A stretch of DNA of 64,000 nucleotides, taken from Nitrosomonas sp. JL21. Its GTDB lineage: Bacteria > Pseudomonadota > Gammaproteobacteria > Burkholderiales > Nitrosomonadaceae. Where the stretch lies: assembly GCF_009833095.1 (NCBI RefSeq), contig NZ_QRCB01000023.1, forward strand, positions 1 to 64,000, given 5' to 3'. A program made the translations under genes and the position numbers. A model generated the notes under the pieces. It searched no databases. It saw only the letters and a list, made by a program, of their open reading frames with translations, and was not told the DNA's origin. This document shows, piece by piece, positions 1,048 to 18,682 of this stretch (the stretch's first letter is position 1; each line of letters starts with the position of its first letter).

Positions 1048-2300
1048 CTTACTCCATCGAGAAAACCAGCCAACTCTGCAAATCCTCTTTCCACGCCGTC
1101 CGTTATATTCTTTCTGCGAAAAATATCCATGGGGAGCGGCCCCGCCTTTCCGGCCCAGCGTGCGATATCCTCTGATGAAAGGCGTGCCACACGAGTGGTA
1201 GCCAGTCTGGCCGCGAGAACATCGTCATGTTGGGCGGAACCGGATAGATTCATAACCTTGTACTTTGTTCGATCTGTCAATCCAGCTGCTTGGAACGAGG
1301 CGCGCCGAATGAGACATGGTATACATCTGCCGCACTGCATATTAATTCGCTTTCCTTTTCCACACGAATAAGACTCGGCAGCGAGTGTCTCGATGTCGCT
1401 GCGACTGCTTCCAGCCAGCATCTCTCCCTTAGTCATTCCTTCGAATAGATTCGTAAGCGCAATGTCTAATCCTACTGCGCGCAACACTACTTCCAGCTCT
1501 TCAAGAAAGTAAGGATGCGTTGTTCGCGTGCTTAGGGAACCAAAGCGTCGTGCCGTAAAGGGAGGGTTTATCGCAATAAGCCCATTCTCAGGGATGAACA
1601 GTTCATTCAAACCATGTGAGGAAGCGGCGACAATCCCATATGCGAAGAATATTATGGATCGGCTACGAGTCGATCCCTCATAGGGAGGGTGCCATTTTTC
1701 GGTAACGCGACCATCAAACCGATAACTATCTAATTTCAAGGCATTTGCGAGATACTTCTGCGGTGAAATTTCCTTTGGTGAGCCTTGACTCACCAAAAAA
1801 GGATGTTTGCCATCATTAAGGAGTTTAATAGCCCCCAGAAGGCTATCAAGGCCACCAGAAAATAAGCAGATTGCATCGCGATCAGTCATTCGGGGAGAAA
1901 ATGTGGGAGGCGAAATCCCGCCGCTACGCAAAGATAGCTGCCATATATCTCCTGTTAGGAATCGGAGAGTAGCAGCAAGTCTTTTTAAGTGCGGTATCCA
2001 AGGGACGGGGTTAGAAACCGCGACATCAAGTGCAATGACCCTGGTCCACCCATCTTCTGCGTTGGCTCTCAAAACGAATCGATCAGCTGCGAAAACAGCA
2101 AGTGCTATTGATAAAAAATCCCAAGCCTCCACTGATGGAGGTTGGGGAAGCTGTTTTACTACTGACTGAGATAAGTTGCTTCCCAGGCCCGGAAGCTGAG
2201 TTGTACCGGCGTGGTAAAGTGCAACACCGATGTTTCCCTTTCGCATTGCGGTCATGGCATCGGAATCGTTAGGGGTGGCAATAACGCGTGTCGCTACCAT
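1038..2300 (-). CDS. qatC: QatC, QueC-like PP-loop ATPase of the Qat system
   Basis: A 420-residue protein related to QueC (7-cyano-7-deazaguanine synthase). The PP-loop SGGLDS sits at residues 148-153. A zinc-type cysteine cluster is seen at C313, C323, C326 and C329 (QCGRCIPC). About 140 residues precede the PP-loop, which housekeeping QueC (about 230 residues) lacks; this extension is typical of QatC. The gene overlaps qatB upstream by 7 bases and qatD downstream by 10, so the four genes are probably co-translated. No other queuosine genes are nearby, which argues against a housekeeping role. The family's biochemical role in defence is not settled; nucleobase chemistry or protein modification are both possible. 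Confidence 0.9.
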   Translation of the reverse strand: MVATRVIATPNDSDAMTAMRKGNIGVALYHAGTTQLPGLGSNLSQSVVKQLPQPPSVEAWDFLSIALAVFAADRFVLRANAEDGWTRVIALDVAVSNPVPWIPHLKRLAATLRFLTGDIWQLSLRSGGISPPTFSPRMTDRDAICLFSGGLDSLLGAIKLLNDGKHPFLVSQGSPKEISPQKYLANALKLDSYRFDGRVTEKWHPPYEGSTRSRSIIFFAYGIVAASSHGLNELFIPENGLIAINPPFTARRFGSLSTRTTHPYFLEELEVVLRAVGLDIALTNLFEGMTKGEMLAGSSRSDIETLAAESYSCGKGKRINMQCGRCIPCLIRRASFQAAGLTDRTKYKVMNLSGSAQHDDVLAARLATTRVARLSSEDIARWAGKAGPLPMDIFRRKNITDGVERGFAELAGFLDGVRWL

Positions 2301-3100
2301 TTCGACATTTCCCCGAACACAGTTTCGACGATTGAATGAATTAGTCCTTCAACCTGAGTCTGGCTCAATGATGAACCCGCCTGCTGTAATGCTGGGGTTG
2401 CCTTCGCGTCTGTTACCTCGCAAACTAGGATCCGCAGATCGTTTTCACGGATTACTGCTTCCTGTGGTGATACGCTGCCTACTGATTGTCCCTGATCAGC
2501 GGAAATCGAGCTGAACACCATCTCGGCGATGAAAGCTCGTGTGGCAACTACTACAGCGTGATCATCTAATGCGGCCAAATCAAATTTGTCCAAACCATCA
2601 AGTGCTTCAACTAGCGCTTCACCGATGGATGCTCTCAAGATGTCCTCATCAATGATCCCTGGAGGGCAGAATGCATCGACGATCTCATTGATTGCATCTT
2701 GGACGGGCCGGCCGGTGAGGCTGGCGAGGTCAAATCCGTTTGACGCAACGGTGTTGCCAGCGACGGCATTCGAGAGGGCAGATATAACTCCTCCACCCAC
2801 TTTCGACGCTCTCGCCATTCGTTGAGCGCCACCTGACCCACTGCCTGCTGATCCTCTTGAATAATGTCCAAGTGCTCGCCTCGCGTCGTCTCGATTTCCA
2901 GATCGCATGAATTGCTTTAGTGCCCGGCGAAAGTTGGCGTGCCGTCTTGGTGGGATGATCTCATCCGGTTGTTGCGTCTCATCTGCGGGAGGCAGTTGGG
3001 GTAGATTTGCTGCATCTGCAGGAGGTGGATCTGCTGCTGCCCAAGACGGAACCAAGGGACTTCCAGGTCTTGCCGACGGCTTGGATTGTGATGTTCCCAT
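2294..3100 (-). CDS. qatB: QatB, Qat system protein of unknown activity
   Basis: A 268-residue soluble protein. The first 60 residues are Pro/Ala/Ser-rich and probably disordered. They are followed by a Gly/Ser/Arg-rich stretch (YSRGSAGSGSGG) and a more ordered carboxyl half. A MGTSQSK start preceded by AAGGAGAG is clear, and the ATG overlaps the qatA stop by one base (TAATG). No catalytic motif is visible. The identity rests on position between the KAP ATPase and the QueC-like gene, and on the Gly-rich amino-terminal architecture that I associate with QatB. In the Qat system all four genes are reported to be needed for phage protection. Confidence 0.85.
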   Translation of the reverse strand: MGTSQSKPSARPGSPLVPSWAAADPPPADAANLPQLPPADETQQPDEIIPPRRHANFRRALKQFMRSGNRDDARRALGHYSRGSAGSGSGGAQRMARASKVGGGVISALSNAVAGNTVASNGFDLASLTGRPVQDAINEIVDAFCPPGIIDEDILRASIGEALVEALDGLDKFDLAALDDHAVVVATRAFIAEMVFSSISADQGQSVGSVSPQEAVIRENDLRILVCEVTDAKATPALQQAGSSLSQTQVEGLIHSIVETVFGEMSKW

Positions 3101-4860
3101 TATTTCTCTCCTTCTATTATCTTTGCATTTTCGAGCAGATATTTTGTCGCTTTGTGCATATTGGAGATGGTAAGCCCACCGACAAAAGTTTTTAGCTCTG
3201 CTTGGGCGTCGGTTGACGACTGAGCGAGAATAATTGCCCCGTGAATACCTGATGGGGATTTGGAGAAATCTTGCTCTCTTAGGTGAGCAACGATTTCTCC
3301 CATTACTACTCTTCTATCAGTTGGAGGCAAGTCTTCAGCAAGTTTTTTTCCTTGAGGTGAGTTGACACTGTTTACCAAAAGCAACGCAGCCAATGTGTTC
3401 ATTGCCGTATCTGAGAGACTTGTTCTGGCGAAGGAAGGTGCCATGACATCGCGGCTAAGGAATGCAGCTGGCCGTAACGACTTGGCGTCTTCAAAAGCAG
3501 GTTCCATTTCGCGCCAGCTCGTGATGAATTCCTCATAACCTTTCCACTCGACAGGCAATTCGGGACGCTTATCCTTTAGCTTTGCGTCTGGACACAGCAA
3601 CAAGCCGCCCTTGTCGTCCTCCATTACGAGGCGATACAGTGCGCTGGCGGCTTTGCCATCGGTGCTTCTTTCGAACACGGCTAATTTGGCCAAAGTTGCC
3701 AGGTCAACGTTCATTCCTCTGCTGCGTGCAAGTGATTGGCGAAGGGTGATCGCATTTAGCAAACGCTTCACGATACGAGGATTCCCGCCAATCGTCGGAG
3801 CGGTTGTCAAAATGGACGCAAGCCTATCGCATACTGAAAGTGAATCGAGGAGATCTGTCGGGCTCCCAGCAAGGCTGTTAATTTCAGCTTTTGAGAATGT
3901 TTTACCAGACCAGCTATTCTGAAGTGCATCAAGCAAGTACTTCTGTACATCCGCAAGTCTGCTAGGTGCATGTAGTTCGACGAACAAAGAATACATATAT
4001 GCGCGAACATCCTCATTACTGACCTGAGGAACACGCATCGGCACCTGTATGACCTTATCCAAATAGTCGTTCACGTGTCGTGAATTTATGTCTTTGAAAT
4101 GCTTGCTTACAGAATGCCGAACCATGTCCTCATCAGCTGCAATGACGAATGCAGTTCCTTGGATAAAGAGGAAAAGCCGAATTGCTTCCAAAGTGCCAAT
4201 AGCGACATCAGGCAGGCAACGATCAAGGTTGTCTATGAAAAGTACAAGTGGACGTTCGAGTCCTTCAATAATCTCGCCGAACTCCTGCCGAAAGGCGTCG
4301 ATTTCTTTTGGCGGAGTTCGCTCTTTTTTAGGGCCGACGAGTTCTGACCATGTCGCTCCAACGGTTTTTCGAGCGTCTTTGAGCGCTTCAGCATCATCTG
4401 CTCCGCCCGTGCCGGCAATAAGTGAAGTTATTGCGCCGCCTGCCTTAGTTAGAAGACCGGGGGGCACACCAAACGCCATGCCTATGCCAAAATCGGCGGC
4501 CATCCCGAGTGCTCGAAAGTAGTTTACACGTTCTGCGAAACCCTTAGCTTTCTGATATAGAGTGTCTTTCGCGGCAGTTTCATTCAATAGACGATCAGCA
4601 ACCACTTCCATGAGTGCAGCTTTGGCGTCATCGAATCCCTGATAAAGCCATGCATCAAATTTGATTATGATGGGATCCAGACCGGATATAAGCAAGCGCT
4701 TCTCTGCGAGCGCCAAGACCGTAGATTTACCTGTCCCCCAAGTGCCGAACACACCAATAGATACAGGAAGCAGCTGTGGGCTGGTAGCCAGCGTTGCAAT
4801 CTGATCTGCAAGCTCGGTGAAGTTCAGAAAATCCTGATCGCTTTCACTATCGCGCCACAT
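3100..4860 (-). CDS. qatA: QatA, KAP-family P-loop ATPase of the Qat system
   Basis: A 586-residue KAP P-loop NTPase. Walker A is at residues 39-46 (GTWGTGKS) and Walker B at about 205-215 (LVLFIDNLDRC). The hydrophobic, Gly-rich insertion between them (about 120-152) is the position of the membrane segments usual for KAP ATPases. It is the first gene of the Qat operon; GGGGAGGAA lies 5 bases before the ATG. The carboxyl part (350-586) is helical with no known motif. Upstream, 140 bases hold the promoter and an 18-bp perfect palindrome. With the three following genes it forms a complete, apparently intact anti-phage system. Confidence 0.9.
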   Translation of the reverse strand: MWRDSESDQDFLNFTELADQIATLATSPQLLPVSIGVFGTWGTGKSTVLALAEKRLLISGLDPIIIKFDAWLYQGFDDAKAALMEVVADRLLNETAAKDTLYQKAKGFAERVNYFRALGMAADFGIGMAFGVPPGLLTKAGGAITSLIAGTGGADDAEALKDARKTVGATWSELVGPKKERTPPKEIDAFRQEFGEIIEGLERPLVLFIDNLDRCLPDVAIGTLEAIRLFLFIQGTAFVIAADEDMVRHSVSKHFKDINSRHVNDYLDKVIQVPMRVPQVSNEDVRAYMYSLFVELHAPSRLADVQKYLLDALQNSWSGKTFSKAEINSLAGSPTDLLDSLSVCDRLASILTTAPTIGGNPRIVKRLLNAITLRQSLARSRGMNVDLATLAKLAVFERSTDGKAASALYRLVMEDDKGGLLLCPDAKLKDKRPELPVEWKGYEEFITSWREMEPAFEDAKSLRPAAFLSRDVMAPSFARTSLSDTAMNTLAALLLVNSVNSPQGKKLAEDLPPTDRRVVMGEIVAHLREQDFSKSPSGIHGAIILAQSSTDAQAELKTFVGGLTISNMHKATKYLLENAKIIEGEK

Positions 4861-4999: not shown

Positions 5000-5632
5000 T
5001 TATCTGGTGCTGGTCATCAATTTTTCCTTTATATGAGAAAATTGGGACAGAGCGCGGTAGATCGTACGCGGAGAAACGTTGAATTGACCTGCAATCTGTA
5101 CGGGAGTCATATTAGGCTGATATTGTAGCAGGCTTTGCATACGGGCAATCTGGCAACGAGACAGCTTCTTCGGCCTGCCAAGATGCGCTCCGCGTTGCCG
5201 CGCGGCCTCCATTCCCGCCTTGGTACGCTCGCGAATGAGATTGCGTTCCAGCTCCGAAAACGCATGACGGATCTGGTACATGCATTTTCCCATTGGTGTG
5301 GTCGTATCGATGTCTTCGGTCAGGCACCGAAATTCAATCGCCCGATTTTCAAATTCCTCCAGAATGTTCAGCGCATTTTTAAGCGAGCGAAAGGCACGAT
5401 CCATTTTCCACACCACCAGAACATCACCCGCCTGCAAATGGGATAGCGCTTTTTCAAAGCCAGGTCGCCGCTTGGCAGTGGCCGATACGCCACGGTCTTC
5501 AAAAATGGCGCTGCACCCGGCCAGCTTCAAAGCATTGATCTGAAGATCAAGATGCTGGTCTTCCGTCGAAACGCGGGCATAACCGATGATGCAGCCAAAA
5601 TTTTTGATAGCGTGATTGTGCTCTTTGTACAT
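5000..5632 (-). CDS. Small serine recombinase (resolvase/invertase family)
   Basis: A 210-residue serine recombinase. The catalytic domain starts GYARVSTEDQ with nucleophile Ser22. The RPGFEKAL and VWKMDRAFRS segments carry the usual active-site arginines, and ELERNLIRERTKAG begins the long E-helix. A carboxyl helix-turn-helix (about 165-195, PVQIAGQFNVSPRTIYRAL) binds DNA. Length and domain order match Tn3-type resolvases and Hin-type invertases, not large integrases. No transposase accompanies it, so it is either a plasmid multimer resolution enzyme or a relic of a transposon. The 150 bases upstream contain paired imperfect palindromes that look like its recombination site. Confidence 0.88.
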   Translation of the reverse strand: MYKEHNHAIKNFGCIIGYARVSTEDQHLDLQINALKLAGCSAIFEDRGVSATAKRRPGFEKALSHLQAGDVLVVWKMDRAFRSLKNALNILEEFENRAIEFRCLTEDIDTTTPMGKCMYQIRHAFSELERNLIRERTKAGMEAARQRGAHLGRPKKLSRCQIARMQSLLQYQPNMTPVQIAGQFNVSPRTIYRALSQFSHIKEKLMTSTR

Positions 5633-5650
5633 TTCATTTCCTTAACGATA

Positions 5651-5798
5651 GACAAAAAGGAACCCTTTTGACTTATCCTCATAACCGCCTCCCGTCAATT
5701 CAAAATGGAACAATCGTGTCAAAAAGCCTGCAAGATCGGCTGCTTTTCGCTCAATAAAAAGATATGCAAATTGTGACAAAATGGTTCCCTTTTGTCAC
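5651..5798. repeat. Res-like recombination site of the serine recombinase
   Basis: Two related inverted repeats flank a 100-base spacer. The left one (5651-5672) has arms GACAAAAAGG and CCTTTTGAC; the right one (5773-5798) has arms GTGACAAAA and TTTTGTCAC. A middle segment (5701-5725) has CAAAATGGAAC and GTGTCAAAA half-sites in direct orientation. The 150-bp extent, the position directly upstream of the recombinase gene and the shared half-site (GACAAAA) are what a three-subsite resolvase res region shows. That the recombinase acts here is an inference. Confidence 0.55.
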
Positions 5799-6247
5799 AG
5801 CGAAAGATATCGATAGGTCAAAGACTTATCGGTAAATGGGTGATGATTGGCATCCTGTTCGTAGGTGTTGGCAGCAATGCTGCGTCTGCGCAGGAAACGT
5901 TGTTATCAGCCAAGGAAGATTACATTACCTGCTGGAAACAGCCGTGTGTGCTTGTTGCCGGAAGTGAATGGTCTGAGAAGAATCCGAATGGCGTAGGGAT
6001 TTCTGTGCGAATGGGAACCCAGTCGGGTGTAACGGACGATCAGATTAAAACTGTGCTGACCAGAGATTTCAAGAAGCATGGCATGACGAATATCAAGTTT
6101 TTCTTTGAGCAAAACGATGCGCCTGCCGCCGGTATTTCGTTTCATGTTCGAGGAGGAACGCAAGGATTATTTTTTATAGATAACGTGCGTGAAAAGGTTG
6201 CGGTCATTGCCAAACGAGCAGCTAATACGAACCCGGTATTCCAGTAG
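5792..6247 (+). CDS. Small secreted protein of unknown function
   Basis: Unrecognised 151-residue protein. A basic start followed by a hydrophobic stretch and SNAASAQE looks like a Sec signal peptide cleaved after about residue 34. The mature part has two close cysteines (CWKQPC), which could form a disulfide in the periplasm. The TTG start used here lies inside the right res-like palindrome and has no good ribosome site; an ATG at 5843 (MIGILFVG) is the alternative, but it would leave a very short signal peptide. The stop is one base before the end of the convergent neighbour. Confidence 0.6.
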   Translation: MSQRKISIGQRLIGKWVMIGILFVGVGSNAASAQETLLSAKEDYITCWKQPCVLVAGSEWSEKNPNGVGISVRMGTQSGVTDDQIKTVLTRDFKKHGMTNIKFFFEQNDAPAAGISFHVRGGTQGLFFIDNVREKVAVIAKRAANTNPVFQ

Positions 6248-6248
6248 C

Positions 6249-7052
6249 TTACGACATAAACTTTAAAACGGCATCGGAAGGGCGTGTCTGTGAAAGCTCT
6301 TCATCATGCTGACTGTCCCAATCATCACGAACAGATGCTTTTGTATCCAAATTGTTAAAAAGACGATCTGCAAAAACCATTTCTTGGTTATCTCCACGCT
6401 GTTTCATTTCATCGAGGAGTTGTGACTTGCGCTGCGGGCTGGTATAGTCATCATCCAGTTCAGCAACAATCGCTTTGGCGCTGGTGAGGTGAAATTGTTT
6501 CTGCGCCCATTCTGCGTAGTCGCTATATTTCGGATCGTTTTTGTATTTGTCCTTGATCGTACCGTCCGGGTTGAGCATTTCGTCAATCAGGTGGCGTTCC
6601 AGCCGCTTGCGGTAGGCTTGAATACTTTCACCCACTTCTTGTTGCGGGATTGCATCCGCATCCAGAATCTTAAGCGCCAGTTTTTCACGCCACGCATCCC
6701 CGTCGCGTTTCTCGAATAAGGCGGTCAGTTTTTTGATATCGGCTTCCATCCGTTCGATGGATGCGCGGAGTTGCGCGGCTATCTCAACAAATTGAGAGGT
6801 CTGGCGCTCCTTGGTTTTACGTTCTTCTTCAGCTTGCCTGGATGAATTTCTGCTGGCGACAGAACCGCGCTCAATCATGCCTGTGACTGTACCTGAAAGC
6901 TGACCAACCAGCAGTTGGTTGTCTTTTTCGATAAATTCCATATGACGCAGACGATTGAAATCGTCGTCTGACAGACAGGTATCACAATCGAGAAAAACAC
7001 TGGTCAATCCACCTGAAGTCCGCAGTTCTTCATCAGTCGACTTATTAACCAT
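6249..7052 (-). CDS. Charged coiled-coil protein of unknown function
   Basis: Unrecognised 267-residue cytoplasmic protein without signal peptide or membrane segment. Residues about 70-125 are rich in Glu, Lys, Arg and Gln with heptad-like spacing (RQAEEERKTKERQ, then IERMEADIKKLTALFEK) and probably form a coiled coil. A DCDTCLSDDDF segment near residue 22 holds two cysteines. The start has GGAG 6 bases upstream, and that site falls within the first of three inverted repeats in the leader. It is convergent with the secreted protein gene and downstream of the ankyrin gene on the same strand. A structural or plasmid-accessory role is possible, but nothing identifies it. Confidence 0.65.
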   Translation of the reverse strand: MVNKSTDEELRTSGGLTSVFLDCDTCLSDDDFNRLRHMEFIEKDNQLLVGQLSGTVTGMIERGSVASRNSSRQAEEERKTKERQTSQFVEIAAQLRASIERMEADIKKLTALFEKRDGDAWREKLALKILDADAIPQQEVGESIQAYRKRLERHLIDEMLNPDGTIKDKYKNDPKYSDYAEWAQKQFHLTSAKAIVAELDDDYTSPQRKSQLLDEMKQRGDNQEMVFADRLFNNLDTKASVRDDWDSQHDEELSQTRPSDAVLKFMS

Positions 7053-7054
7053 TG

Positions 7055-7140
7055 GCGGCTCCGTCGCAGAGCCATAAGGTCAGAGTGGCGCGGTATGCTA
7101 CCGCATACCAAATATTCAGAATAACTACGTTATTCTGAAT
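7055..7140 (-). promoter_or_regulatory. Three consecutive inverted repeats in the leader of the coiled-coil gene
   Basis: Directly upstream of the start at 7052 lie three separate stem-loops. The first has arms GGCTC and GAGCC (7057-7061, 7069-7073). The second has GGTATGC and GCATACC (7092-7098, 7103-7109). The third has ATTCAGAATAAC and GTTATTCTGAAT with a 3-base loop (7114-7125, 7129-7140). The ribosome site overlaps the first. They could be operators, a structured leader, or in the third case a bidirectional terminator for the ankyrin operon arriving from the right. Confidence 0.5.
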
Positions 7141-7423
7141 CACTGTCGATGAAATTCCAGGCACAATATTCCCCATTATCCCTGCTTCCCGGTTAATATC
7201 AAATTGTGCAAGGCACAACATTGCCTATAAAAATCGCCTTTTTACATTAACAGGAACGGGTTAATAAGTGGTTAATTGCGATCATAACCATTTTCTTTTG
7301 TATTCAATAGGGATTGAAAAAAAATAAAGAAATGTAGGACAAGTCGAAATCGAAAGATTGTGATATAAGTGTCTGATTGATAGTTTGCCTTAGAATATCA
7401 ACTTAAAATGAAGAGTAAAAAAT
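7141..7423. other. AT-rich intergenic stretch after the ankyrin gene
   Basis: No gene. It contains one short hairpin, TTGTGC and GCACAA around AAG (7204-7218), and otherwise AT-rich DNA between the end of the ankyrin operon and the leader repeats of the next gene. Confidence 0.4.
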
Positions 7424-9511
7424 CTAATTTTCAACACCATACTCAATCAATAGTTCGATTATTGTTGTGTGTCCGTTCGCTCTAGCAATTGATAAAGCCG
7501 TTTGTCCTTCATTATAAAATACGTCAAATTTGATCTTTCGATCCAATAGCGATTTAACAACTTCAATATGGTTACGTAGACACGCCCAAATAAGTGCTGT
7601 TTGACCCTCGTTGTCAGCGATATGAATATTCGCTCCTTTATCAATCAATAACCTGATCGCTTCAGTGTGTCCGTTGTCGCTAGCCCAGATAAGCGCCGTA
7701 CGATCCTCATTGTCGGCAAAATCAATATTTGCTCCCTCATCAAGCAAGATTCTGACCGCTTCAGTATGACCATTGCCACTGGCCCAGATAAGCGCTGTAC
7801 GGTTCTCGATATCCGTAAATTCAATATTTGCTCCTTTCGCGATCAGGATTTTGACTGTTTCAGTATGACCGTTGCCACTGGCCCAGATAAGTGCTGTACA
7901 ACCTATATTGTTTGCGGCATCAATATTTGCTCCTTTATCGAGTAGCAGTTTCACTACTTCAATGTAACCGTTGCCGCTGGCCAAAATAAGTGCCGTACAA
8001 TCCTCGTCATCAGTAACATCTGTCTTTGCTTCTCTATTCAGAAGCAGTCTGACTACATCCATATGACCGTTGAGGCTGGACCAGGCAAGTGCCGTACTAC
8101 CCCCATTATCGGTGGCATCAATATTTGCTCCTTTATCGAGCAAGATTCTAACTGTTTCATAATGACCGTAGCGGCTGGCGCTAATAAGTGCTGTATTACC
8201 CTCATTATCGATAAAATCAATCATTGCTCCCCTATCGAGCAAAATCCCTACTGCTTCAGTATGACCGTTGGCACTGGCCCAGATAAGTGCCGTACAATTA
8301 TCCTTGTCGGCAAAATTAATCGCTGCTCCTTTGTCGAGTAAAATTCTCACTGTTGCAGCATGGCCATTGTCGCTAGCCCAGATAAGCGCTGTGCGACCCT
8401 TCTTATCGGTAGCATCTATCTCTGCTCCTTTTTCGAGCAACAGCTTAACAATTTCACAGTGACCATCTTCGCTGGCTAGTATTAGCGATGTTCGATCCCC
8501 TATAGCATCAACATCAATCTTTGCTGCCTTATCAAGCAACAACTTAACCATTTCTGTATGACCGCTGATTGAAGCAGACATAAGTGAGATTGGACTTGCT
8601 TCAGCGCTATTTTTAAGTAGTAATTTGAATATTTCCATGTTCCCACTAACAATAGCCCAAGTAAGTGCCGTAAGACTTTTTTTATCTGGGATTTCACTAT
8701 TTGCTCCTCTCTCAAGAAGTAATCTGACCGCTTCAATGTGCCCGTTAACGCTAGCACAGAAAAGTGCCGTGCGACCATCTTTGTCAGTAGTATTAATATC
8801 TGCTCCTTTGTTGAGCAGCAATCTGATTAATTTAGTATGTCCTTTGCCACTAGCCCAGATTAGTGCCGTTAGACCTTTGTTATCAATGGCATGTAAGTTT
8901 GCTCCTACATTTAGTAAGTACTTTGCAGTTTTAATATCTCCCTTCATGCACGCAATCATGATCGAATTCATACCGTTGTCGAGCACTGCGTCCTTGTTGA
9001 TTCCACCATAATTAATCAGTCCATATATAAATTTATTAAACCCATTAAAACTTGCGATGATGAGTAGCGTTTCTCCGCTAAATTCCTTTGATAAGTAAAA
9101 ATAAAGCAATGAAAAGATTTCCTTAGAGATTAAGGCTGGGATTTTTATAAACTTGTGCATTAATTCGAAGTGAAGAATGTAGTAGTGTACAGATGCTGCA
9201 TTAAAATCTTCGCCAATAATCTGATAAAAGACAACGGGATCGATTTTATTGAATAAAGAAACTATTTCTTCTTTTTCAGAGAACTGATCTTGTAATGCAT
9301 CAACGATATCTAAAATCCCAGCGGTTACCGCCCACTCAATAGGCTTAGCTATTCCAAAATCTGATGGATTCATAAAATTGAAAAGCGTATGCCACAGCGC
9401 TCGCGTTTCTTTCAGACTCTGGTCATCGTTAAGTAAGTTCCGTGTTAAACGTTGGATGAAAGCAATAAATTCCGCGGCATCTTCTGTTTGCGTGGCTTCA
9501 ACTCCCGCCAT
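7424..9511 (-). CDS. Large ankyrin-repeat protein
   Basis: A 695-residue protein. The first 150 residues are helical and unlike the rest. From about residue 152 to the end I count 17 tandem ankyrin repeats of about 33 residues. The consensus is TALIWASxNGH followed by EAVRILLDKGANID; repeats 13-15 are nearly identical. No signal peptide or membrane segment is seen. Ankyrin arrays bind protein partners. The start lies 6 bases after the stop of the upstream STAND-like ATPase gene, so the two are probably co-expressed; the array may serve as the ligand-sensing module that in many STAND proteins is fused to the ATPase. The high repeat identity suggests recent expansion by unequal recombination. 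Confidence 0.9.
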   Translation of the reverse strand: MAGVEATQTEDAAEFIAFIQRLTRNLLNDDQSLKETRALWHTLFNFMNPSDFGIAKPIEWAVTAGILDIVDALQDQFSEKEEIVSLFNKIDPVVFYQIIGEDFNAASVHYYILHFELMHKFIKIPALISKEIFSLLYFYLSKEFSGETLLIIASFNGFNKFIYGLINYGGINKDAVLDNGMNSIMIACMKGDIKTAKYLLNVGANLHAIDNKGLTALIWASGKGHTKLIRLLLNKGADINTTDKDGRTALFCASVNGHIEAVRLLLERGANSEIPDKKSLTALTWAIVSGNMEIFKLLLKNSAEASPISLMSASISGHTEMVKLLLDKAAKIDVDAIGDRTSLILASEDGHCEIVKLLLEKGAEIDATDKKGRTALIWASDNGHAATVRILLDKGAAINFADKDNCTALIWASANGHTEAVGILLDRGAMIDFIDNEGNTALISASRYGHYETVRILLDKGANIDATDNGGSTALAWSSLNGHMDVVRLLLNREAKTDVTDDEDCTALILASGNGYIEVVKLLLDKGANIDAANNIGCTALIWASGNGHTETVKILIAKGANIEFTDIENRTALIWASGNGHTEAVRILLDEGANIDFADNEDRTALIWASDNGHTEAIRLLIDKGANIHIADNEGQTALIWACLRNHIEVVKSLLDRKIKFDVFYNEGQTALSIARANGHTTIIELLIEYGVEN

Positions 9512-9517
9512 GAATAC

Positions 9518-11155
9518 CTAGCGAAATTCAACTTGATATTTGGGGGAGTCTTCGAGAAATCGGAGAAATTTCAGAAAGAAACTTTCACCAAGGATATCGG
9601 GCTCAAAAGGTTTTAAAATTTCTGTATTGTTATCTGCAACAACTTTCTGACAAATTTCTTTCACTCCGTCAAAATGCTCAGGAGAGGGGGTGTAATTGCC
9701 CGCCGCCTCGATAAGATTACTATAGTGCATCCCTCGCCGTGCCGTCGCTACCGCAATAAAGTGTGATGCCCATCGCCCTATATCATCTCCACGTTTCCAA
9801 GGTAGACGATTATCGCCTGAAAGATAGTAATTGATCAGTTCACGGCGATTCCATATCTTGAAATCATTGCCTGACTTAATTATTGCATCACCTACGAGCG
9901 CTGCGAAAAGTGGGTGATATGCGCCTTGTGTTTCTTGAAGATATTTGTGAGCTATATCAACTTGATCACTTTTTTTATCAAACCCAGAACGATGTGCAAT
10001 GACAGATTTGATGATTTCTTCTTGATCCTGTGTGTGTATAAGATCAAGCGGCTTTAAATCAAAAAAATATTTCTCATTACGGTTAAGGCTCGATCCATCG
10101 CCGGAAAATCCCCAGCGTTTGTCGCTGTGCAATGGTTCTGAAAATACATGATCGATAAGGAGTAGTCTTATTTTTGGTACATCAGATTCTAGGCGGTGAT
10201 GCATTAATTTCTGAATCACTGCTTCAAAACCGTACATATAATCGATGATGAGCAATGTCGGTTTATCAGGTATCCAGTTCGACCATTTCTCAGGTTCGGT
10301 TCGATCCTCTTTATGCAGAAAGCGGCGATTCCAATCTTTCAGTGCAGCCGACTCATATGCCCATTGGGAAGCCAGTCGCGTTTTTCCAGCACCGGAAGGG
10401 CCTACAATGGCCCAAATTTTGAATTGACCGTCATCTTTGATAAATTTGTCGAGTGATTTACGCTCATCGTCTCGGCCTTCAAGAGGAAGCGCATCAAAGT
10501 TATAGGGATCAAGCCATTTTTCTCTATCATTAACACGATCAATCCCATGTCCACTTTCTGTGGTTGTTTGTTCAGATGGTTGCTCTTGATGATCCTGTGC
10601 AATGAGTTGCGCTGATTCTGATTCCAGTTGCCTTACCAGTTTAGGAGCTTCACGAAGAAAATCTTCTATGGTGCCCTTATATTCAGAATGTAATAAAAGC
10701 TGTATTTTTTTACTTTCACAATCTTTAAGGAATTCAGCCAGTAAATGGATAAGCTCTACATCTAAAAATTCGGCAGCAGTCTGAATTCCAATTTTTATTC
10801 GTCCAGATTTTATGTTTCTATTTCTTCCTAAACGAAAAACTTCAGCTAGCCCAGCGGCTCTTTTATTTAATTCATTTCGAAAATCTTGTCTGCGTTCTTT
10901 TTCCCTCGCTTCACTCACCGGTTTACGATGCTTCCCTTGACTTACCCAATCAATTAAAAAGCCATGGAGATGTATGAAATCAAGCCGTGAGTAGGATGGA
11001 TCGATGGGGTGCTTAAGATCGGGAATATTTTTCCCATCCTTTTCTACCCAATCACGGATACCGCATTTTAAGATTTCTTCAAAAAGATCTCGGTATTTCT
11101 GAGCTTCGATAGATTCTGCTTTGTATTTATTAATTTCCTTTTTTTTGTTTTCCAC
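9518..11155 (-). CDS. STAND-like P-loop ATPase with unassigned N-terminal domain
   Basis: A 545-residue protein. Residues 1-200 are helical and charged, with no motif I recognise. A single P-loop ATPase domain follows: Walker A at 252-259 (GPSGAGKT), Walker B at about 300-306 (TLLIIDY), then a helical region ending in an EPDILGESFF segment (about 522-531). That late acidic LGE motif is seen in STAND-type NTPases joined to repeat sensors. Here no repeat is fused, but the next gene encodes 17 ankyrin repeats. The start is GTG with AGGAAAGTAGGT just upstream. A regulatory or defence ATPase is the best inference; the specific function is unknown. Confidence 0.8.
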   Translation of the reverse strand: MENKKKEINKYKAESIEAQKYRDLFEEILKCGIRDWVEKDGKNIPDLKHPIDPSYSRLDFIHLHGFLIDWVSQGKHRKPVSEAREKERRQDFRNELNKRAAGLAEVFRLGRNRNIKSGRIKIGIQTAAEFLDVELIHLLAEFLKDCESKKIQLLLHSEYKGTIEDFLREAPKLVRQLESESAQLIAQDHQEQPSEQTTTESGHGIDRVNDREKWLDPYNFDALPLEGRDDERKSLDKFIKDDGQFKIWAIVGPSGAGKTRLASQWAYESAALKDWNRRFLHKEDRTEPEKWSNWIPDKPTLLIIDYMYGFEAVIQKLMHHRLESDVPKIRLLLIDHVFSEPLHSDKRWGFSGDGSSLNRNEKYFFDLKPLDLIHTQDQEEIIKSVIAHRSGFDKKSDQVDIAHKYLQETQGAYHPLFAALVGDAIIKSGNDFKIWNRRELINYYLSGDNRLPWKRGDDIGRWASHFIAVATARRGMHYSNLIEAAGNYTPSPEHFDGVKEICQKVVADNNTEILKPFEPDILGESFFLKFLRFLEDSPKYQVEFR

Positions 11156-11248
11156 ACCTACTTTCCTAAATGATTTCGGATAGTAGTTTAAACAAAAAAA
11201 CGGATGAACATACTTTTCATCTAATTTCTCCAGATTGGAAAAATAAAA

Positions 11249-11569
11249 TTATTTGGGTTCACCTATATCAGGATTACCAGTGCCAGATGAATATTTCCCA
11301 GATTTATCAGCTTCAGCCAGCCTTTCACACAAGTTCATAAATTCATCAAAGCTTTCTTGTGAAGGAGATATTTCCATGAGTTTGAGCTTTAGCGCATCCT
11401 GCATGTGATTAGCGACTGGAATGTTACGGTCTTCAGCATGAAGGGCTACTGCGATTAATAATTTGGTACATATGTAATCCCAGTTTTGCGCATTAAATGT
11501 GATGGTGACTTTGTCATCCTTGACTTTGATCTTTAATGAGTCTGAGCCATGTGATCTTTTCCGTGTCAC
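11249..11569 (-). CDS. Small protein heading the ATPase-ankyrin operon
   Basis: Unrecognised 106-residue protein, no signal peptide. It begins with a basic strand-forming stretch (KIKVKDDKVTITFNAQ), continues with helical segments, and ends with a Gly/Ser-rich tail. The start is GTG; an in-frame stop lies two codons upstream, so this is the only start. It reads toward the ATPase gene 93 bases away on the same strand and is the first gene after the divergent promoter region, hence probably part of the same transcription unit. It could be a regulator or an accessory subunit. Confidence 0.6.
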   Translation of the reverse strand: MTRKRSHGSDSLKIKVKDDKVTITFNAQNWDYICTKLLIAVALHAEDRNIPVANHMQDALKLKLMEISPSQESFDEFMNLCERLAEADKSGKYSSGTGNPDIGEPK

Positions 11570-11824
11570 TGCTCATTTTCCCTTCCTATAGCGTTTCAGC
11601 CTGCCTTCAGGTTCTGCATTTCCATAGCATGAGACATTTCCTACACGCAAGAGATTTTATCAACATACTGATTATATATATTAATTTATCGAATCTGCAC
11701 CGCGGCTAACCGGAATATTGCGTGTGCGCCGTACAAAAACGCGTACGTATCTACGAACATCTCGTACGCAAAATTCCCCCTAAAATTGAATTGTTTTTTG
11801 AAAATTTAATTCGGAAGCACGGCC
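11570..11824. promoter_or_regulatory. Divergent promoter region with inverted CGTACG motifs
   Basis: Separates the minus-strand ATPase-ankyrin operon from the plus-strand conjugation-type block. GCGTACG (11741-11747) and CGTACGC (11763-11769) form an inverted repeat with 15 bases between, and further GTAC/TACG motifs lie around it (GCCGTAC, CTACGAAC). This looks like a multi-site operator. No gene is visible in the stretch. Confidence 0.45.
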
Positions 11825-11878
11825 ATGAGTACCGGAAAGCCCACCAGTTTTTCAAGATTCTACATACGGGAGAAAAAC

Positions 11879-12193
11879 ATGAAAACCCCAGAAAATTTTA
11901 ATCCTACGCCATCATCTATTGAAACGGCTATTCAGGAAATTAAAGAAAGCCTCGCGGATCTTTATCCGCCGGGCGATGCACAATACATCCAGCTTTATCA
12001 ATCGCTTGCGTCTGAGCATCAGCAAGCTTTGCAAGCGAAACAGCAGGAAATAGACGATTTAACACGGCGTGTCATGACCAATGTTCACTTGATTCTATCT
12101 CTTGACTATCCGGACGATCATTCTTCCGTCATCTCAGCCTCAGCCCCGCCAACCATTCGCGCTTTGATCCAGCGCCACGATGGGGAGGAATAG
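11879..12193 (+). CDS. Small soluble protein opening the VirD4-VWA block
   Basis: Unrecognised protein of 104 residues from the ATG at 11879, which has GGGAG 6 bases upstream. An in-frame ATG at 11825 would add 18 basic residues. The sequence has two likely helices (IETAIQEIKESLADL and a Gln-rich SEHQQALQAKQQEIDDL) that suggest a short coiled coil. It overlaps the start region of the next membrane protein gene, whose ribosome site lies inside its last codons. First gene of a co-directional series leading to the coupling protein. Confidence 0.6.
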   Translation: MKTPENFNPTPSSIETAIQEIKESLADLYPPGDAQYIQLYQSLASEHQQALQAKQQEIDDLTRRVMTNVHLILSLDYPDDHSSVISASAPPTIRALIQRHDGEE

Positions 12194-12197
12194 CACT

Positions 12198-13178
12198 ATG
12201 AATGGATCAAAACCTTGCGTCGCGATAACCGAACATCAATTTGCTATCGTGGTGATCACCATAAACAAGCTCAAACGGGAGGCCATTCAATGTTTGTGGA
12301 AACTGGTTCCCTTGATCTTCTCGATAGTTATTTTCCTGAGTGCCACCGGGGTGGAAGTGGCAATTGCCTACGGGGTATTCAGTGGATTGCTGGCTGGCAT
12401 CGAAGATCCAATCGTGCAGCATTCGGCTGGACTGCTCTCGATGACAGCGGTCATCGCCATGCTGACCTATCACTGGATCAGCGAGAACAACCCCGATGCG
12501 TGGTCGGTGCGATTGATCAAAAATTTAAGCACAGTGTTCGCGCCGCTGTATGTTTTCGCTGGCGGTCTGTTCCTCGGCATAATACTTTTCCCCGGCGTGA
12601 TAGCCGTCACCACCAGCGGAACCCTCGATACGATCTTTGGTTTGCCGGTAGAGCAAGTCAACGCCGACAATGTAGGACAAGCCCTCATCACCTGGCTGCA
12701 AGACAATCTGATACTTGCTGCTCCTTTGTTTCTCGCTGGAGTGATGGGAATTTCCGTGATGAGCCTTTTCGTGGGCGGTCAATGCATCAATGTGATCAGC
12801 ACGAATGCATACGCCATTTTCCGCGCCCTGTCGAAATATCTTGTCTCTCGAAGGGCTGGTTTGCAGATGCAACTCGACATCAAAGCATCTCGCAAAATGA
12901 CCTCTGAGCTTGCCCAGCTCGAAAAGCGTAACGATAGTTTTTACAGAAATCATGCGGCCATTGTGGCAGCCGGTCTGGTCGATCAGTACGTGCGGCGTGC
13001 CGAGGCGGCCATCGAAGCCAATCCCGCCTTGTTTACCCGCATAGACGAGCCGGATTCAGCGGTAAGCCGCTTGTTCGGCAAACAGCCTGACTTATCCGTT
13101 ATCCAGGCCCGCATCGATGTTCTCAGAACCCAAAATGTCAAGCATATCCGCAGCGTCATCGACCGCATTCTTAAATAG
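12198..13178 (+). CDS. Multi-pass inner membrane protein of the VirD4-VWA block
   Basis: A protein of 326 residues from the ATG at 12198, which has GGGGAGGAA about 9 bases upstream; an in-frame ATG at 12180 has none. Four hydrophobic segments are visible: around LWKLVPLIFSIVIFLSATG, then SAGLLSMTAVIAMLTY, YVFAGGLFLGIILFPGVIA, and ILAAPLFLAGVMGISVMSLF. The last 110 residues are soluble, helical and charged. No family is recognised. The position before a secreted VWA protein and a VirD4 ATPase suggests part of a transfer or surface complex. Confidence 0.7.
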   Translation: MNGSKPCVAITEHQFAIVVITINKLKREAIQCLWKLVPLIFSIVIFLSATGVEVAIAYGVFSGLLAGIEDPIVQHSAGLLSMTAVIAMLTYHWISENNPDAWSVRLIKNLSTVFAPLYVFAGGLFLGIILFPGVIAVTTSGTLDTIFGLPVEQVNADNVGQALITWLQDNLILAAPLFLAGVMGISVMSLFVGGQCINVISTNAYAIFRALSKYLVSRRAGLQMQLDIKASRKMTSELAQLEKRNDSFYRNHAAIVAAGLVDQYVRRAEAAIEANPALFTRIDEPDSAVSRLFGKQPDLSVIQARIDVLRTQNVKHIRSVIDRILK

Positions 13179-13192
13179 AGGAGATATAACAA

Positions 13193-13846
13193 ATGAAACT
13201 GACGACTTTACTCTTATTCACTGCCTTGAGCGGTGTCGCATATGCCCAGAAACCGACACATATAACTTTCGTACTGGATCAATCGTCATCCAACCCCAAT
13301 GAAGTAGAAGCTTTTCGCAATACTGCCGGAAGACATGCCAAGAACACAGTGACTGAGCTCAACATGGGCGACAGCGTTGCTGTGATGACGTTTGGCGACG
13401 GCGGTCTGAGTAATTTCCAATTAACCAAGCGCGTAAAACTATCGATGCGCATGCGGCCCTCGCAAGTGGGGCTGGCGCTGGAGAAGGCCATTACCGCAAA
13501 GGCCGAAGAAGCTGCCAAGAATCCACAGAATGAAACGCGCTTGATGTCTTTTTTCGAGGACTCTTACCGGGAATTCCAGTGTGGGTCCGGCAATGCGAAG
13601 GTGATCGTTTTTACCGACGGTGTCGAACATTCGGCTGAAATATCGGCCAAGCAGTTTGTTGTCGATAAAAAACAATTACCTAACCCAACGCCCGATATTT
13701 TGAAGGGATGCCATGTCGAGTTTATCGGGGTCGGGATAGGAGCCAAAGGATCGTTGCAACGGCTTGAGAAAAAACACATCACCGATGCATGGTCGGCATG
13801 GATGAAAAAAGCCGGAGCCACGTTCGAAGCGCGTTCCAATCTTTAA
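13193..13846 (+). CDS. Secreted von Willebrand factor A domain protein
   Basis: A 217-residue protein with a clean Sec signal peptide (MKLTTLLLFTALSG, cleavage after VAYA). The mature part is a single VWA-like fold. HITFVLDQSSS is the MIDAS DxSxS motif, GDSVAVMTFGDGG is the second strand, and KVIVFTDGVEH supplies the late Asp. VWA domains bind metal and protein ligands. The start has GAGGAG 8 bases upstream. It sits between the membrane protein and the VirD4-type ATPase. A periplasmic adhesion or assembly role is likely; no specific homologue is known to me. Confidence 0.8.
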   Translation: MKLTTLLLFTALSGVAYAQKPTHITFVLDQSSSNPNEVEAFRNTAGRHAKNTVTELNMGDSVAVMTFGDGGLSNFQLTKRVKLSMRMRPSQVGLALEKAITAKAEEAAKNPQNETRLMSFFEDSYREFQCGSGNAKVIVFTDGVEHSAEISAKQFVVDKKQLPNPTPDILKGCHVEFIGVGIGAKGSLQRLEKKHITDAWSAWMKKAGATFEARSNL

Positions 13847-13874
13847 GATTGGATAACTTCCAGCCCTCATTATC

Positions 13875-15629
13875 ATGAGCCACTACTCCAACAATCAACA
13901 TCCTACCAGCCTACTTACACTTTTGTGCGTTACCGTATTGTTGGTGGGCTGGTCAAATAGTCTACCCCTGCCGATGATGGCGGGTCGCGTAGTAGACTGG
14001 TTTTCTGCGCTCATCCACTTCATGGCAGGGCTATTTTGCCTACACACCGCAATCCGGCTGCTCGAAAATCTCTCGCACTATATCGACCTTTTCGGCAGCC
14101 GCAAGGTATCGGGACAGAAGGGAACTTCCGCATGGGCTAAAGTCAAGGAATACAAAGACGCATTGACCAAAGATAGGCGCGGCCCATTCTGGGGGTGCGC
14201 TTTGGATGGCCCCCGGCCTGCCTTGTTTTTTGATTTCGCCAGTAACGCGATGACAGTCGCACCAGCAGGTTCCGGCAAAGGCATTTATAACGTTGTTCCC
14301 AACATCATGAGCACCAGGAAAAGCAAGGTAGTGGCTGATTTCAAAGGAGAATTATCTTGCTTGTGTAAATCTGCGTTGGAAGCACGTGGCGAAATTGTTC
14401 GAGTACTCAATCCTGGGAATTTATGGTCAGAAATTATTGGAAAAAGTGACTCGTATAATCCGCTCGATATTATTGCCGACGATCTGACGCGTCCTGGAGG
14501 TTTGCGGGACATTAATGACGATCTACGTGAACTGGGAATGCAAATTCAACCAGAGCCGGGAGAGAAAGAGACGGATAATTCCTACTTCCGTGAAGGCGGC
14601 CGTTTCTTGATTGGCTTGGGAAGTTTGTCCGAGTGTATGGTGGATTTGCACGATGCCACGCTTTCATCGGTTGCATTGCTGCTAGAGAACCCTCAACGCT
14701 TGGAAGATACTGCAAGATGGCTAGCGGGCGTAGATATGGAAGGCAAACCACATCCGGATGGACCTTTCCCCATCGAGCATACCGAATGGGCAAAGGTACA
14801 TGACCCACGGGATGTCGCAGAATTCGCGAAGTTGGTCAGAGCCAAAGCACACAACCTCATTACATTGATTTCAGACAGTGATAAAAAAACTTATCTAAGT
14901 TTCGTAACGGGTGCTCAACAAAGTTTGAGTGTGTTCGCTTTCGGGCGATTAGCGCTTGCCATGGGCCGCTCGACCTTTAGCATGAACGATCTCAAGGAAG
15001 GCGACAAACCGACTACGCTTTTCATCGTGGCTGACGCCAGCCGTATGGAGGCATACAAGGCGTATGTCGGCTTGATGCAATGGTGTTGTCTGACTGCAAT
15101 GAAACGTCATCCGAATAAAGAACGTCCCCTATATTGTATTCTGGATGAGGCAAGCAACTATAAAATCAATGGCTTAGAGAGCCTGCTGACATGGGGTAGA
15201 TCGTATGGGCTTCGCCTTCATCTTATCTTTCAAGATCTTGCGGCCTTTGAACGAGTATACGGCAAGACAGCTCTCGATACGCTGATGAGTGAAACCGAGA
15301 TCAAACAATTTCTTCCCGGTCAGCGTTCGCCCAAAACACTGGAAATGATCTCCAAGCAAATGCTCGGCGAGCAATCGGTCATGGCGATGAGTGGCAACCG
15401 ATCCATCGAGCATCTCGGGTTAAACGAAACCATCAGCGAAGTGGGCCGTCTGCTTGCAACCCCTGATGAAATACGGCGCATGAAGGAAGGTATTTTATTC
15501 GTGCGTCAACACCGCCCGATTTTGTTTGAACCTGTATCGTACGCCGAGATCGAGCCTTGGCGCTCGCAAGTAGGCATCAATCCATTTCACGGCAAACCAT
15601 TTCGTAAAAAAATCAAACTGCGTCTCTAG
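13875..15629 (+). CDS. VirD4/TraG-type coupling ATPase
   Basis: A 584-residue type IV coupling protein. Two amino-terminal hydrophobic segments (about 13-35 and 40-62) anchor it in the inner membrane. Walker A is at 129-137 (APAGSGKGI), and the late CILDEAS is Walker B, followed by SYGLRLHLIFQDLAAF, a diagnostic VirD4 segment. Coupling proteins feed relaxase-DNA complexes into a type IV secretion channel. No relaxase is encoded nearby, and the trb channel genes lie 38 kb away on the other strand. Both may belong to the same plasmid transfer system, or this may be a separate mobile element's own coupling protein. Confidence 0.9.
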   Translation: MSHYSNNQHPTSLLTLLCVTVLLVGWSNSLPLPMMAGRVVDWFSALIHFMAGLFCLHTAIRLLENLSHYIDLFGSRKVSGQKGTSAWAKVKEYKDALTKDRRGPFWGCALDGPRPALFFDFASNAMTVAPAGSGKGIYNVVPNIMSTRKSKVVADFKGELSCLCKSALEARGEIVRVLNPGNLWSEIIGKSDSYNPLDIIADDLTRPGGLRDINDDLRELGMQIQPEPGEKETDNSYFREGGRFLIGLGSLSECMVDLHDATLSSVALLLENPQRLEDTARWLAGVDMEGKPHPDGPFPIEHTEWAKVHDPRDVAEFAKLVRAKAHNLITLISDSDKKTYLSFVTGAQQSLSVFAFGRLALAMGRSTFSMNDLKEGDKPTTLFIVADASRMEAYKAYVGLMQWCCLTAMKRHPNKERPLYCILDEASNYKINGLESLLTWGRSYGLRLHLIFQDLAAFERVYGKTALDTLMSETEIKQFLPGQRSPKTLEMISKQMLGEQSVMAMSGNRSIEHLGLNETISEVGRLLATPDEIRRMKEGILFVRQHRPILFEPVSYAEIEPWRSQVGINPFHGKPFRKKIKLRL

Positions 15630-15638
15630 GAGTAAATA

Positions 15639-15920
15639 ATGAAAATGTATTCACCTCAAAAATTTCGCTCTTTCTCATGGCTATCAGTGCTGCTCCGAAG
15701 CTTGGCTTATCTGTTGCGTCACTGGTTTTTGCTATTGATTGCCGCACTGATGATCTCGCCAATCGGCCCACATTTGCTCGTGTGGTACTCATATAAAGAT
15801 TACGGGGCATACAGAGATTACAACGATTGCCTCTATCTAGGGGGCGGCGGGTTGCTTGAACGCGATTTTGGCGATGACTGTCCGGTAATCGTGATCATCG
15901 ATAAACGAGACAAGCAGTAA
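15639..15920 (+). CDS. Small single-pass membrane protein
   Basis: Unrecognised 93-residue protein with GGAG 9 bases before the ATG. A basic start is followed by one or two hydrophobic stretches (residues 15-45, YLLRHWFLLLIAALM), then a tyrosine-rich segment with one Cys (YKDYGAYRDYNDC) and an acidic tail. It starts 9 bases after the coupling protein gene, so the two are surely co-transcribed; it may be a small partner of the VirD4 protein in the membrane. Confidence 0.65.
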   Translation: MKMYSPQKFRSFSWLSVLLRSLAYLLRHWFLLLIAALMISPIGPHLLVWYSYKDYGAYRDYNDCLYLGGGGLLERDFGDDCPVIVIIDKRDKQ

Positions 15921-15948
15921 ATTTTAATCACAACGACAGGAGAAAAAA

Positions 15949-16257
15949 ATGAGCAACAGAACCTCAAATGATGCACCGAATGAAGGCACTCAATCGCATA
16001 CGGGACGCAAACCCGATCAAATTGCTTACACGGTGCGCGAAACAAGCGATGGCAAGGAATACTGGAATCGGATCGGCGCGATGTGGAAACACAAGGACGG
16101 GCGCGGTTCTGAGTTGGTACTGGACAGCATTCCGATAGACGGTCGAATTACGCTTCGCGAGCAACGCGAACAGCGCATGCAGGACTATGAGGAAGAACGT
16201 GCCAATCGGCAGCCGGTGAACAACACCCGAACCCGCGATTATGGCCGGGAACGTTGA
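15949..16257 (+). CDS. Hydrophilic Arg/Glu-rich protein, first of a related pair
   Basis: Unrecognised 102-residue hydrophilic protein, no signal peptide. The start has GGAG 9 bases upstream. The middle (KEYWNRIGAMWKHKDGRGSE) followed by IPIDGRITLREQREQRMQ and a charged tail recurs in weaker form in the next gene, which also has GRGSE and LREQREAR. The two thus appear to be diverged tandem paralogues. The charge pattern suggests DNA binding or a flexible partner of the coupling protein. Its end overlaps the next start by 17 bases. Confidence 0.6.
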   Translation: MSNRTSNDAPNEGTQSHTGRKPDQIAYTVRETSDGKEYWNRIGAMWKHKDGRGSELVLDSIPIDGRITLREQREQRMQDYEEERANRQPVNNTRTRDYGRER

Positions 16258-16696
16258 CAAGAACTATGACGGGGAGCTGCCATCGCGAACGACCAGCTTC
16301 TCCGGCAAGCATCCACAACTGGGGAGCGATACCCCGGCAAGCTTTCAAAGAGCACCGTCATCCCGCCGGGAATTCGATCAGGTACGCGATCCATACTATG
16401 CCAGGCAAATGAAAGTGATGGAGCTGACCGAAGCACAGCGGCGCGGGGACAGCGAACGCACGGGACGCGGCTCCGAGATGGTGAAACTGAACAAACCGTT
16501 TCCAGAGCTGCGCCCGAAATCCGAGCAGATTCCCATTCGTGAAACATTTAACCGCGCATGGCTGCGTGAACAACGTGAGGCACGGCTCAATGATCTGGAG
16601 CGGCAACGGGCAAAGCAGCAATTCGAGCGATCCGACCGCTCCATGCACGAGGATTGGGAGGAAAAAAGGCAGCAACAGCGTGGACTGGAACGCTAA
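16241..16696 (+). CDS. Hydrophilic Arg/Glu-rich protein, second of the pair
   Basis: Unrecognised 151-residue, very charged protein with no hydrophobic segment. It shares GRGSE, the IPIR stretch and LREQREAR with the preceding protein, but has 70 extra amino-terminal residues. The last 50 residues are almost entirely Arg, Gln, Glu and Leu (LNDLERQRAKQQFERS), a probable single long helix. It is translationally coupled to the preceding gene by a 17-base overlap in another frame. A 166-base gap without other genes follows. Confidence 0.6.
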   Translation: MAGNVDKNYDGELPSRTTSFSGKHPQLGSDTPASFQRAPSSRREFDQVRDPYYARQMKVMELTEAQRRGDSERTGRGSEMVKLNKPFPELRPKSEQIPIRETFNRAWLREQREARLNDLERQRAKQQFERSDRSMHEDWEEKRQQQRGLER

Positions 16697-16862
16697 ATAG
16701 TTTTGGAAATTGAATGCACGAGGTACGTTTTTTATTGCCAGCTTTAAAAGAATATGTTCTCTTTTTGTTCGTGTTGAATATTTTTTAAACGACGAAGAGG
16801 GACACGAAACGATGAATGAATAACTTTCAAGGCAGGGCCTTGAACAAATCAGGGAGACGAAG

Positions 16863-18678: not shown

Positions 18679-18682
18679 TAGT

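Follow-up and report, generated by a model that had tools for sequence, protein, structure and literature searches.

Bacterial anti-phage receptors such as Avs and bNACHT combine an N-terminal domain, an ATPase of the signal transduction ATPases with numerous domains (STAND) class and a C-terminal repeat sensor in one chain. Apaf-1 and the plant nucleotide-binding leucine-rich repeat (NLR) receptors place WD40 or leucine-rich repeats in the sensor position. In type II toxin-antitoxin systems with a ribbon-helix-helix antitoxin, a small upstream protein is associated with an operator site, and in the effector-associated-domain (EAD) conflict systems, as described in PMC8195603, a helical N-terminal module serves an exchangeable output on a principle that rests on copies of one domain in receptor and partner. 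Here we analyze a minus-strand locus (7424-11569) in a stretch of 64,000 nucleotides from Nitrosomonas sp. JL21 (hereafter the window), which is contig C23 of a 3.17-Mb genome. An initial annotation had presented it as a small protein, a STAND-like ATPase and a separately encoded ankyrin sensor; sequence comparison indicates that the unit is instead two genes, the small protein and one N-domain-STAND-ankyrin chain that is interrupted in the window copy. We consider it probable, with considerable room for doubt, that the system is a mobile-element-borne, NLR-like conflict switch whose front cassette (operator, small partner and N-domain) is swappable.

Like the Avs and bNACHT receptors, relatives of the locus hold N-domain, STAND ATPase and C-terminal repeats in one chain, and several lie near defence genes; they differ in the ankyrin sensor, in an N-domain of no known family, in a regular small companion gene and in a core that falls under the nSTAND_NTPase5 cut-off. 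No PADLOC match with an Avs or bNACHT name was obtained at E ≤0.5, from a library that we believe to include such models. The predicted fold of residues ~200-545 is like that of Apaf-1, NRC3 and ZAR1, whereas the system here is bacterial, with an ankyrin sensor and a different N-domain. TIR-STAND-TPR proteins of Nitrosomonas (genome G019, locus L011) share a core family with a second locus of this genome, on contig C26 (E 6e-51), but carry a TIR effector and a TPR sensor (assigned by eye), and G019 is without the small gene type found here. The locus resembles the EAD systems as described in PMC8195603 in its helical N-terminal module and exchangeable output, but no domain common to companion and N-domain was detected (E 0.15 over 21 columns, with shallow profiles). 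The small upstream protein with its operator-like site and weak structural resemblance recalls type II toxin-antitoxin modules, but its partner is a STAND receptor of 872 to 1648 residues where complete, and no toxin domain was recognized in it. The system appears to be a variant of known NLR-like STAND receptors, with an N-domain and a small protein outside known families. A literature search, with subscription journals mostly outside its coverage, returned no description of a STAND-ankyrin protein with such a companion in titles and abstracts or in passages of PMC8195603, PMC13236601 and PMC10907252.

An in-frame stop divides a single gene

Three open reading frames (ORFs) lie on the minus strand, at 11249-11569 (106 residues), 9518-11155 (545 residues) and 7424-9511 (695 residues), with gaps of 93 and 6 bases, as the initial annotation had listed them. 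The second, with the N-domain and STAND ATPase, and the third, with a linker (~residues 1-147) and 17 ankyrin repeats, share one frame, and between them stand only a single TAG (9518-9520, minus strand) and two codons. Read through the TAG, they give a continuous chain of 1243 codons in which this stop is the only one; the chain aligns end to end with the single-chain relative P0046 (1213 residues) at 62% identity; P0050 (1016 residues, Nitrosomonas sp. Is24) is likewise a long chain that runs past the stop position. We examined 99 database relatives. The ATPase core is covered by 75, and 71 of them extend to the stop column, where 70 have an amino acid and one a gap; the other four end before it. 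Database proteins have no internal stops by construction, and the telling point is that none terminates at the stop position of the window.

Because the frame is shared and the 71 relatives continue past the stop position, the comparison resolves the unit into a small-protein gene and one gene for the long chain, and the "missing sensor" of the ATPase is the continuation of the same gene. The ORFs, gaps, motifs, repeats and Qat neighbours of the initial annotation all stand; the separateness of ATPase and ankyrin protein does not, and the 71 relatives that run through this place lead us to reject a split sensor as a family trait. An in-frame stop can evidently mimic a split-sensor design, a trap that is corrected here. 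An effector role for residues 1-150 of the ankyrin protein, as had been suggested, also falls: ankyrin ORF residues 1-395 align with residues 551-886 of P0002 (E 1e-71), which places the 150 residues in the linker of the single chains.

The 695 codons beyond the stop form an open frame, and the third codon past the TAG is an ATG in that frame, at 9511. General readthrough of TAG in this organism is unlikely, as TAG terminates 7 of 19 other window genes checked; a tRNA scan of the window returned none. The database has one member sequence on one contig (record P0001), so that the TAG at 9518-9520 may be a true stop or an assembly error. The window copy has either suffered recent damage or functions as two pieces coupled in translation, and the odds that it works are about even.

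STAND core, N-terminal domain and ankyrin array

The P-loop core and its following helices occupy residues 205-545 (9521-10543, minus strand). The motifs named by the initial annotation are borne out: residues 252-259 form Walker A (GPSGAGKT), D305 is the Walker B aspartate and a late PDILGE stands at 519-524. An alignment of 27 sequences, that of the window included, shows most motif positions to be invariant or almost so, among them G252-T259 and D305, with residue 256 being A or S. The predicted structure of residues ~200-545 has NRC3, Apaf-1 and ZAR1 as its top matches, with AAA+ proteins close behind. A second look at the whole model gave residues 200-528 as the part really covered; the Apaf-1 alignment extends to residue 545, which would take in a winged-helix domain after the NTPase, but residues 447-532 are mostly modelled at a predicted local distance difference test score (pLDDT) <50. 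On this model the ATPase is a STAND protein of predicted NLR/Apaf-1-type fold. The Pfam family nSTAND_NTPase5 (PF25199) was matched at 25.3 bits, below its gathering cut-off of 34, and precomputed domains list PF25199.2; the P-loop weakly matches the MalT model (E 0.028).

The N-terminal domain (~residues 1-180; 10616-11155, minus strand), which we call type I, is predicted to be helical with a beta hairpin at a pLDDT of ~90. Searches of Pfam, NCBIfam and PDB sequences assigned it to no known family, housekeeping families included, and we regard weak family and PDB-sequence matches of this domain and the small protein, with best E values of 0.0056 to 1, as chance. It is possibly the effector half, a reading that gains some indirect support because modules of N-domain and small gene are exchanged, as described below. 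Three relatives (P0007, P0020 and L015:3261-6032) have an extra NTPase-like stretch between N-domain and STAND core, listed as PF24883 for P0007 and P0020.

In the ankyrin part, a run of 16 units, almost all of them 33 residues long, begins at residue 178, and one degenerate unit (~148-177) was recognized by eye, giving the 17 repeats counted earlier; the array matches Pfam Ank_2 at E 2e-145.

The small partner and an upstream operator-like site

The small protein (106 residues; 11249-11569, minus strand) is predicted to fold as beta-beta-alpha-alpha-alpha, and a weak resemblance of this model to ribbon-helix-helix structures may point to a protein of that class. No known family of note was matched in Pfam, PADLOC, NCBIfam or PDB sequences, and opioid-receptor rows returned by Foldseek were taken as noise. 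Among 85 genomes of the genus, the type-I small protein occurs in two (G000 and G447).

A 24-bp operator-like site with repeated GTACG half-sites, GTACGC-N3-TTTGTACGGCG-N-ACA, lies 153 bp upstream of the small gene (11723-11746, minus strand). Its distance upstream from the small gene is 147-153 bp in the window, C26 and the related locus L014, and 218 bp in L013; in L015, L016 and L018 it is absent from the 300-340 bp upstream of the small gene and from the rest of the locus. In the 85 genus genomes, the 17 fixed bases of the site are matched three times at ≤1 mismatch, exactly in each case and at the three type-I small genes of these genomes, although these loci also supplied the pattern, and a reversed-pattern control gave 15 matches at ≤1 mismatch against the 3 real ones, so that rarity alone is unremarkable. 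One hundred shuffles of the window gave no site matches. Seven matches in viral contigs were taken as chance, since none accompanied a type-I small gene or a STAND core and several lay inside a DNA polymerase-like reading frame. Because L016 has the VWA, membrane-protein and coupling-protein genes of the surrounding element backbone but no site, the site tracks the cassette and not the backbone. The small protein may autorepress through it.

Relatives suggest exchange of the front cassette

Scanning of genome contigs yielded 22 loci, of which 18 (L013-L030) were used and four (L031-L034) were dropped as matched over 45-115 residues only; with the window and C26, the set comprised 20 loci. The STAND-ankyrin gene and an upstream small gene are kept together as a locus in other genomes: a same-strand small ORF precedes the STAND gene in 20/20 loci, that of L017 being cut by the contig end and that of L030 reading in two pieces, and ankyrin units and ATPase are joined in one chain in 17 of the 18 scanned loci, L030 being truncated at its contig end. 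The core occurs in 6 of 398 sampled genomes of the phylum, this genome counted. A whole-alignment A1 search of 399 genomes of the order was swamped by ankyrin-only matches and gave no usable count. Plasmids gave one weak ATPase match (31% over 24%) and none for the small protein, a phage search with the ATPase gave no match, and viral contigs gave one ATPase match (25%).

Eighteen of the 20 small ORFs belong to three recognized types, with L020 and L027 unassigned. By profiles, type I comprises the window, C26, L013, L014 and L018 (E 6e-7), and type Ib comprises L015 and L016; the type-I profile, run on a set of 20 sequences, matches L016 at E 2e-4 and L015 at E 0.002, and the two types may be distant relatives. 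Type II consists of HRxDGPA-repeat proteins, found upstream of the STAND gene in L017, L019, L021-L026 and L028-L030, and each of the 11 was found by a profile that did not contain it (E 4e-10 to 2e-47). Seven of them gave no Pfam match of note; presumably they resemble MORN/YwqK-type repeats. The N-domains fall into corresponding types, with type I in the window, C26, L013 and L014, type Ib in L015 and L016, and type II in 11 alphaproteobacterial loci, of which eight were recovered at E ≤2e-5, L023 (0.003) and L022 (0.02) weakly and L026 not (0.19). The exceptions to the pairing of small-protein and N-domain types are L018 and L020.

In a tree of the ATPases, the window, L013, L014, L015 and L016 form one clade (100/99) with cores 56-70% identical, and within it L015 and L016 carry other N-domains and other small genes, whereas the genes beyond (VWA, membrane protein and coupling protein) are common to the window, L014 and L016. 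The comparison suggests that the receptor's front end moves with the small partner as one cassette, and that exchange runs both ways, with the same core under another cassette in L015 and L016 and the same cassette on another core in C26. The initial annotation had been silent on this pairing, as on the operator-like site and the mobile-element setting.

A further locus of this genome

Contig C26 encodes a type-I small protein (105 residues), a 617-residue STAND protein and a 667-residue protein that combines ankyrin repeats with a TPR-like stretch, and it shares with the window three downstream neighbours, a 265-residue protein (C26 length), a 159-residue protein and a resolvase. The two N-domains are 37% identical over 205 residues (E 1e-39). 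The ATPase core of C26 is distant from that of the window (34% over 87 residues) and matches instead the TIR-STAND-TPR proteins of the genus noted above. ATPase and sensor are divided in C26 by a 4-base ATGA stop-start overlap, 32 residues past a PDILAS motif, and in the window by a stop 21 residues past PDILGE; both loci of this genome are thus divided at one architectural joint, a noteworthy coincidence. Proteins matching Aga_TIR, argonaute-associated by model name, lie near two of the STAND loci, C26 (L005:307-1689) and L029 (L029:14332-15783).

Mobile-element and defence context

Divergent from the system, the window carries a type IV coupling protein (T4CP) gene of VirD4/TraG-like type (13875-15629, plus strand; PF02534 E 1e-37, PF12696 E 3e-21). 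A T4CP model matched within the retrieved sequence of 14 of 19 loci (the window, L013-L019, L022-L026 and L029); it was built from seven of these, and it picked up the other seven at E 4e-15 to 2e-203. Four of the five loci without a match (L020, L021, L027, L028 and L030) have <3.3 kb of upstream sequence, and C26, whose contig ends ~0.5 kb upstream, was left uncounted. Pfam confirms seven of the T4CPs and three relaxases of MobA/VirD2 type, and in three loci a relaxase gene lies just downstream; in the window, where relaxase and type IV secretion genes had no systematic search, the relaxase profile gave no match. The element backbone (11825-15629 and 17047-18678) encodes a small protein, a 332-residue membrane-type protein, a VWA protein, the T4CP and a large serine recombinase, and is common to L016 and, minus the recombinase end, to L014. 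The recombinase ends 5 bases before a reading frame without an evident N-terminus (the two span 17047-20830), which we take to be ArdC/primase-like, and the junction is possibly an insertion edge of the element.

On the other side, a 267-residue protein with no family above cut-off (6249-7052, minus strand) is the downstream neighbour in the window, C26, L013 and L014; it was not found in L018, though L018 has a type-I small gene. Beyond it lies the anti-phage system Qat (292-4860, minus strand), with all four of QatD, QatC, QatB and QatA present (best PADLOC E 9e-84, 5e-91, 3e-40 and 1e-171, respectively), as the initial annotation had it. Ten neighbour genes picked by eye in nine loci were searched with PADLOC and gave matches in seven, with none in L014 and L026: GajB, PD-Lambda-4, type I restriction, HamB, Aga_TIR (two loci) and a weak PD_DExK nuclease. 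The PD-Lambda-4 type protein (E 0; L010:2115-5966, in the sister species G010) stands beside a STAND-ankyrin gene on the same element backbone.

Proposed mode of action and alternative explanations

In the conflict switch that we favour, the ankyrin array would bind a product of an invading phage or rival element, the protein would oligomerize on ADP/ATP exchange in its STAND core, and the N-domains so clustered, aided or opposed by the cognate small protein, would give a growth-stopping output, so that invaders would be stopped at the cost of growth. The small protein would be an antitoxin-like keeper of the N-domain and an autorepressor, which we prefer, or a recruited effector. The STAND ATPase, ankyrin sensor, small gene and defence vicinity of the earlier interpretation are retained here, and the separate sensor as a design is not. 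A wider proposal, which we hold tentatively and would put somewhat below even, is that this is a new receptor family in which operator, antitoxin-like keeper and matching N-domain swap as a unit beneath the STAND-ankyrin chassis or onto an unrelated STAND chassis, type I/Ib keepers (perhaps ribbon-helix-helix) and class-II HRxDGPA keepers being interchangeable and both copies in this genome perhaps being a working two-subunit form. If so, the loci would illustrate how a bacterial NLR-like receptor changes its output, small partner and N-domain being replaced jointly while ATPase and sensor are kept, and the N-domains and small partners would be new effector and regulator families; the conjugation genes close by would open to test the idea that mobile elements use such receptors to keep rivals, phages or their own transfer in check.

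Neighbouring genes may swap jointly without joint function, which makes cassette exchange support and not proof. The T4CP and relaxase genes near the loci, the position of the window site between the small gene and the divergent genes, the weak ribbon-helix-helix resemblance and the weak MalT match would also suit a system in which the small protein regulates by binding DNA and the STAND-ankyrin protein controls the element's own transfer genes (T4CP, VWA and membrane protein) rather than acting as a defence receptor. We regard such transfer control as unlikely: the site goes with the small-gene type, L016 having those transfer genes without it, the class-II companions are repeat proteins without a family match and with nothing to suggest DNA binding, and defence genes are neighbours. 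About equally improbable is an arrangement with the small protein as effector, recruited by an N-domain that is only an adaptor, after the principle described in PMC8195603. The mostly paired types of small protein and N-domain fit that arrangement, but the principle needs one domain in both partners, the two profiles, both shallow, show no detectable similarity, and the small proteins match no catalytic family.

For the window copy only, and compatibly with a conflict switch for the family, there is an even chance that it is a decayed pseudogene of an ordinary STAND receptor or an assembly error. The relatives that pass the stop position, or in four cases end earlier, and the single database record are as expected of this. 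Interruptions also occur elsewhere: in L014 (7772-8067) and L027 (6655-7680) ankyrin repeats continue by eye in another frame past the end of the STAND ORF, which speaks against a two-piece reading, and a TIR-STAND gene of the sister species G008 (L082, G008:C2:14089-15183) has one in-frame TAG upstream of Walker A. Decay or error sits less well with the long frame that stays open after the stop, with its early ATG, and with the division of C26 near the equivalent place by an ATGA overlap of the kind common in coupled genes.

Other features of the window

An Rfam scan of positions 5000-19000 gave no match. Promoter-like sites were not above shuffled sequence (10 vs 13.1), whereas terminator-like sites were (8 vs 3.9); a 12-pair inverted repeat 3' of the ankyrin ORF (7114-7140) was among the terminator-like sites of the window scan. 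The G+C content of the system genes is 40-41%, against 44-53% in 15 neighbouring genes (292 to 23498).

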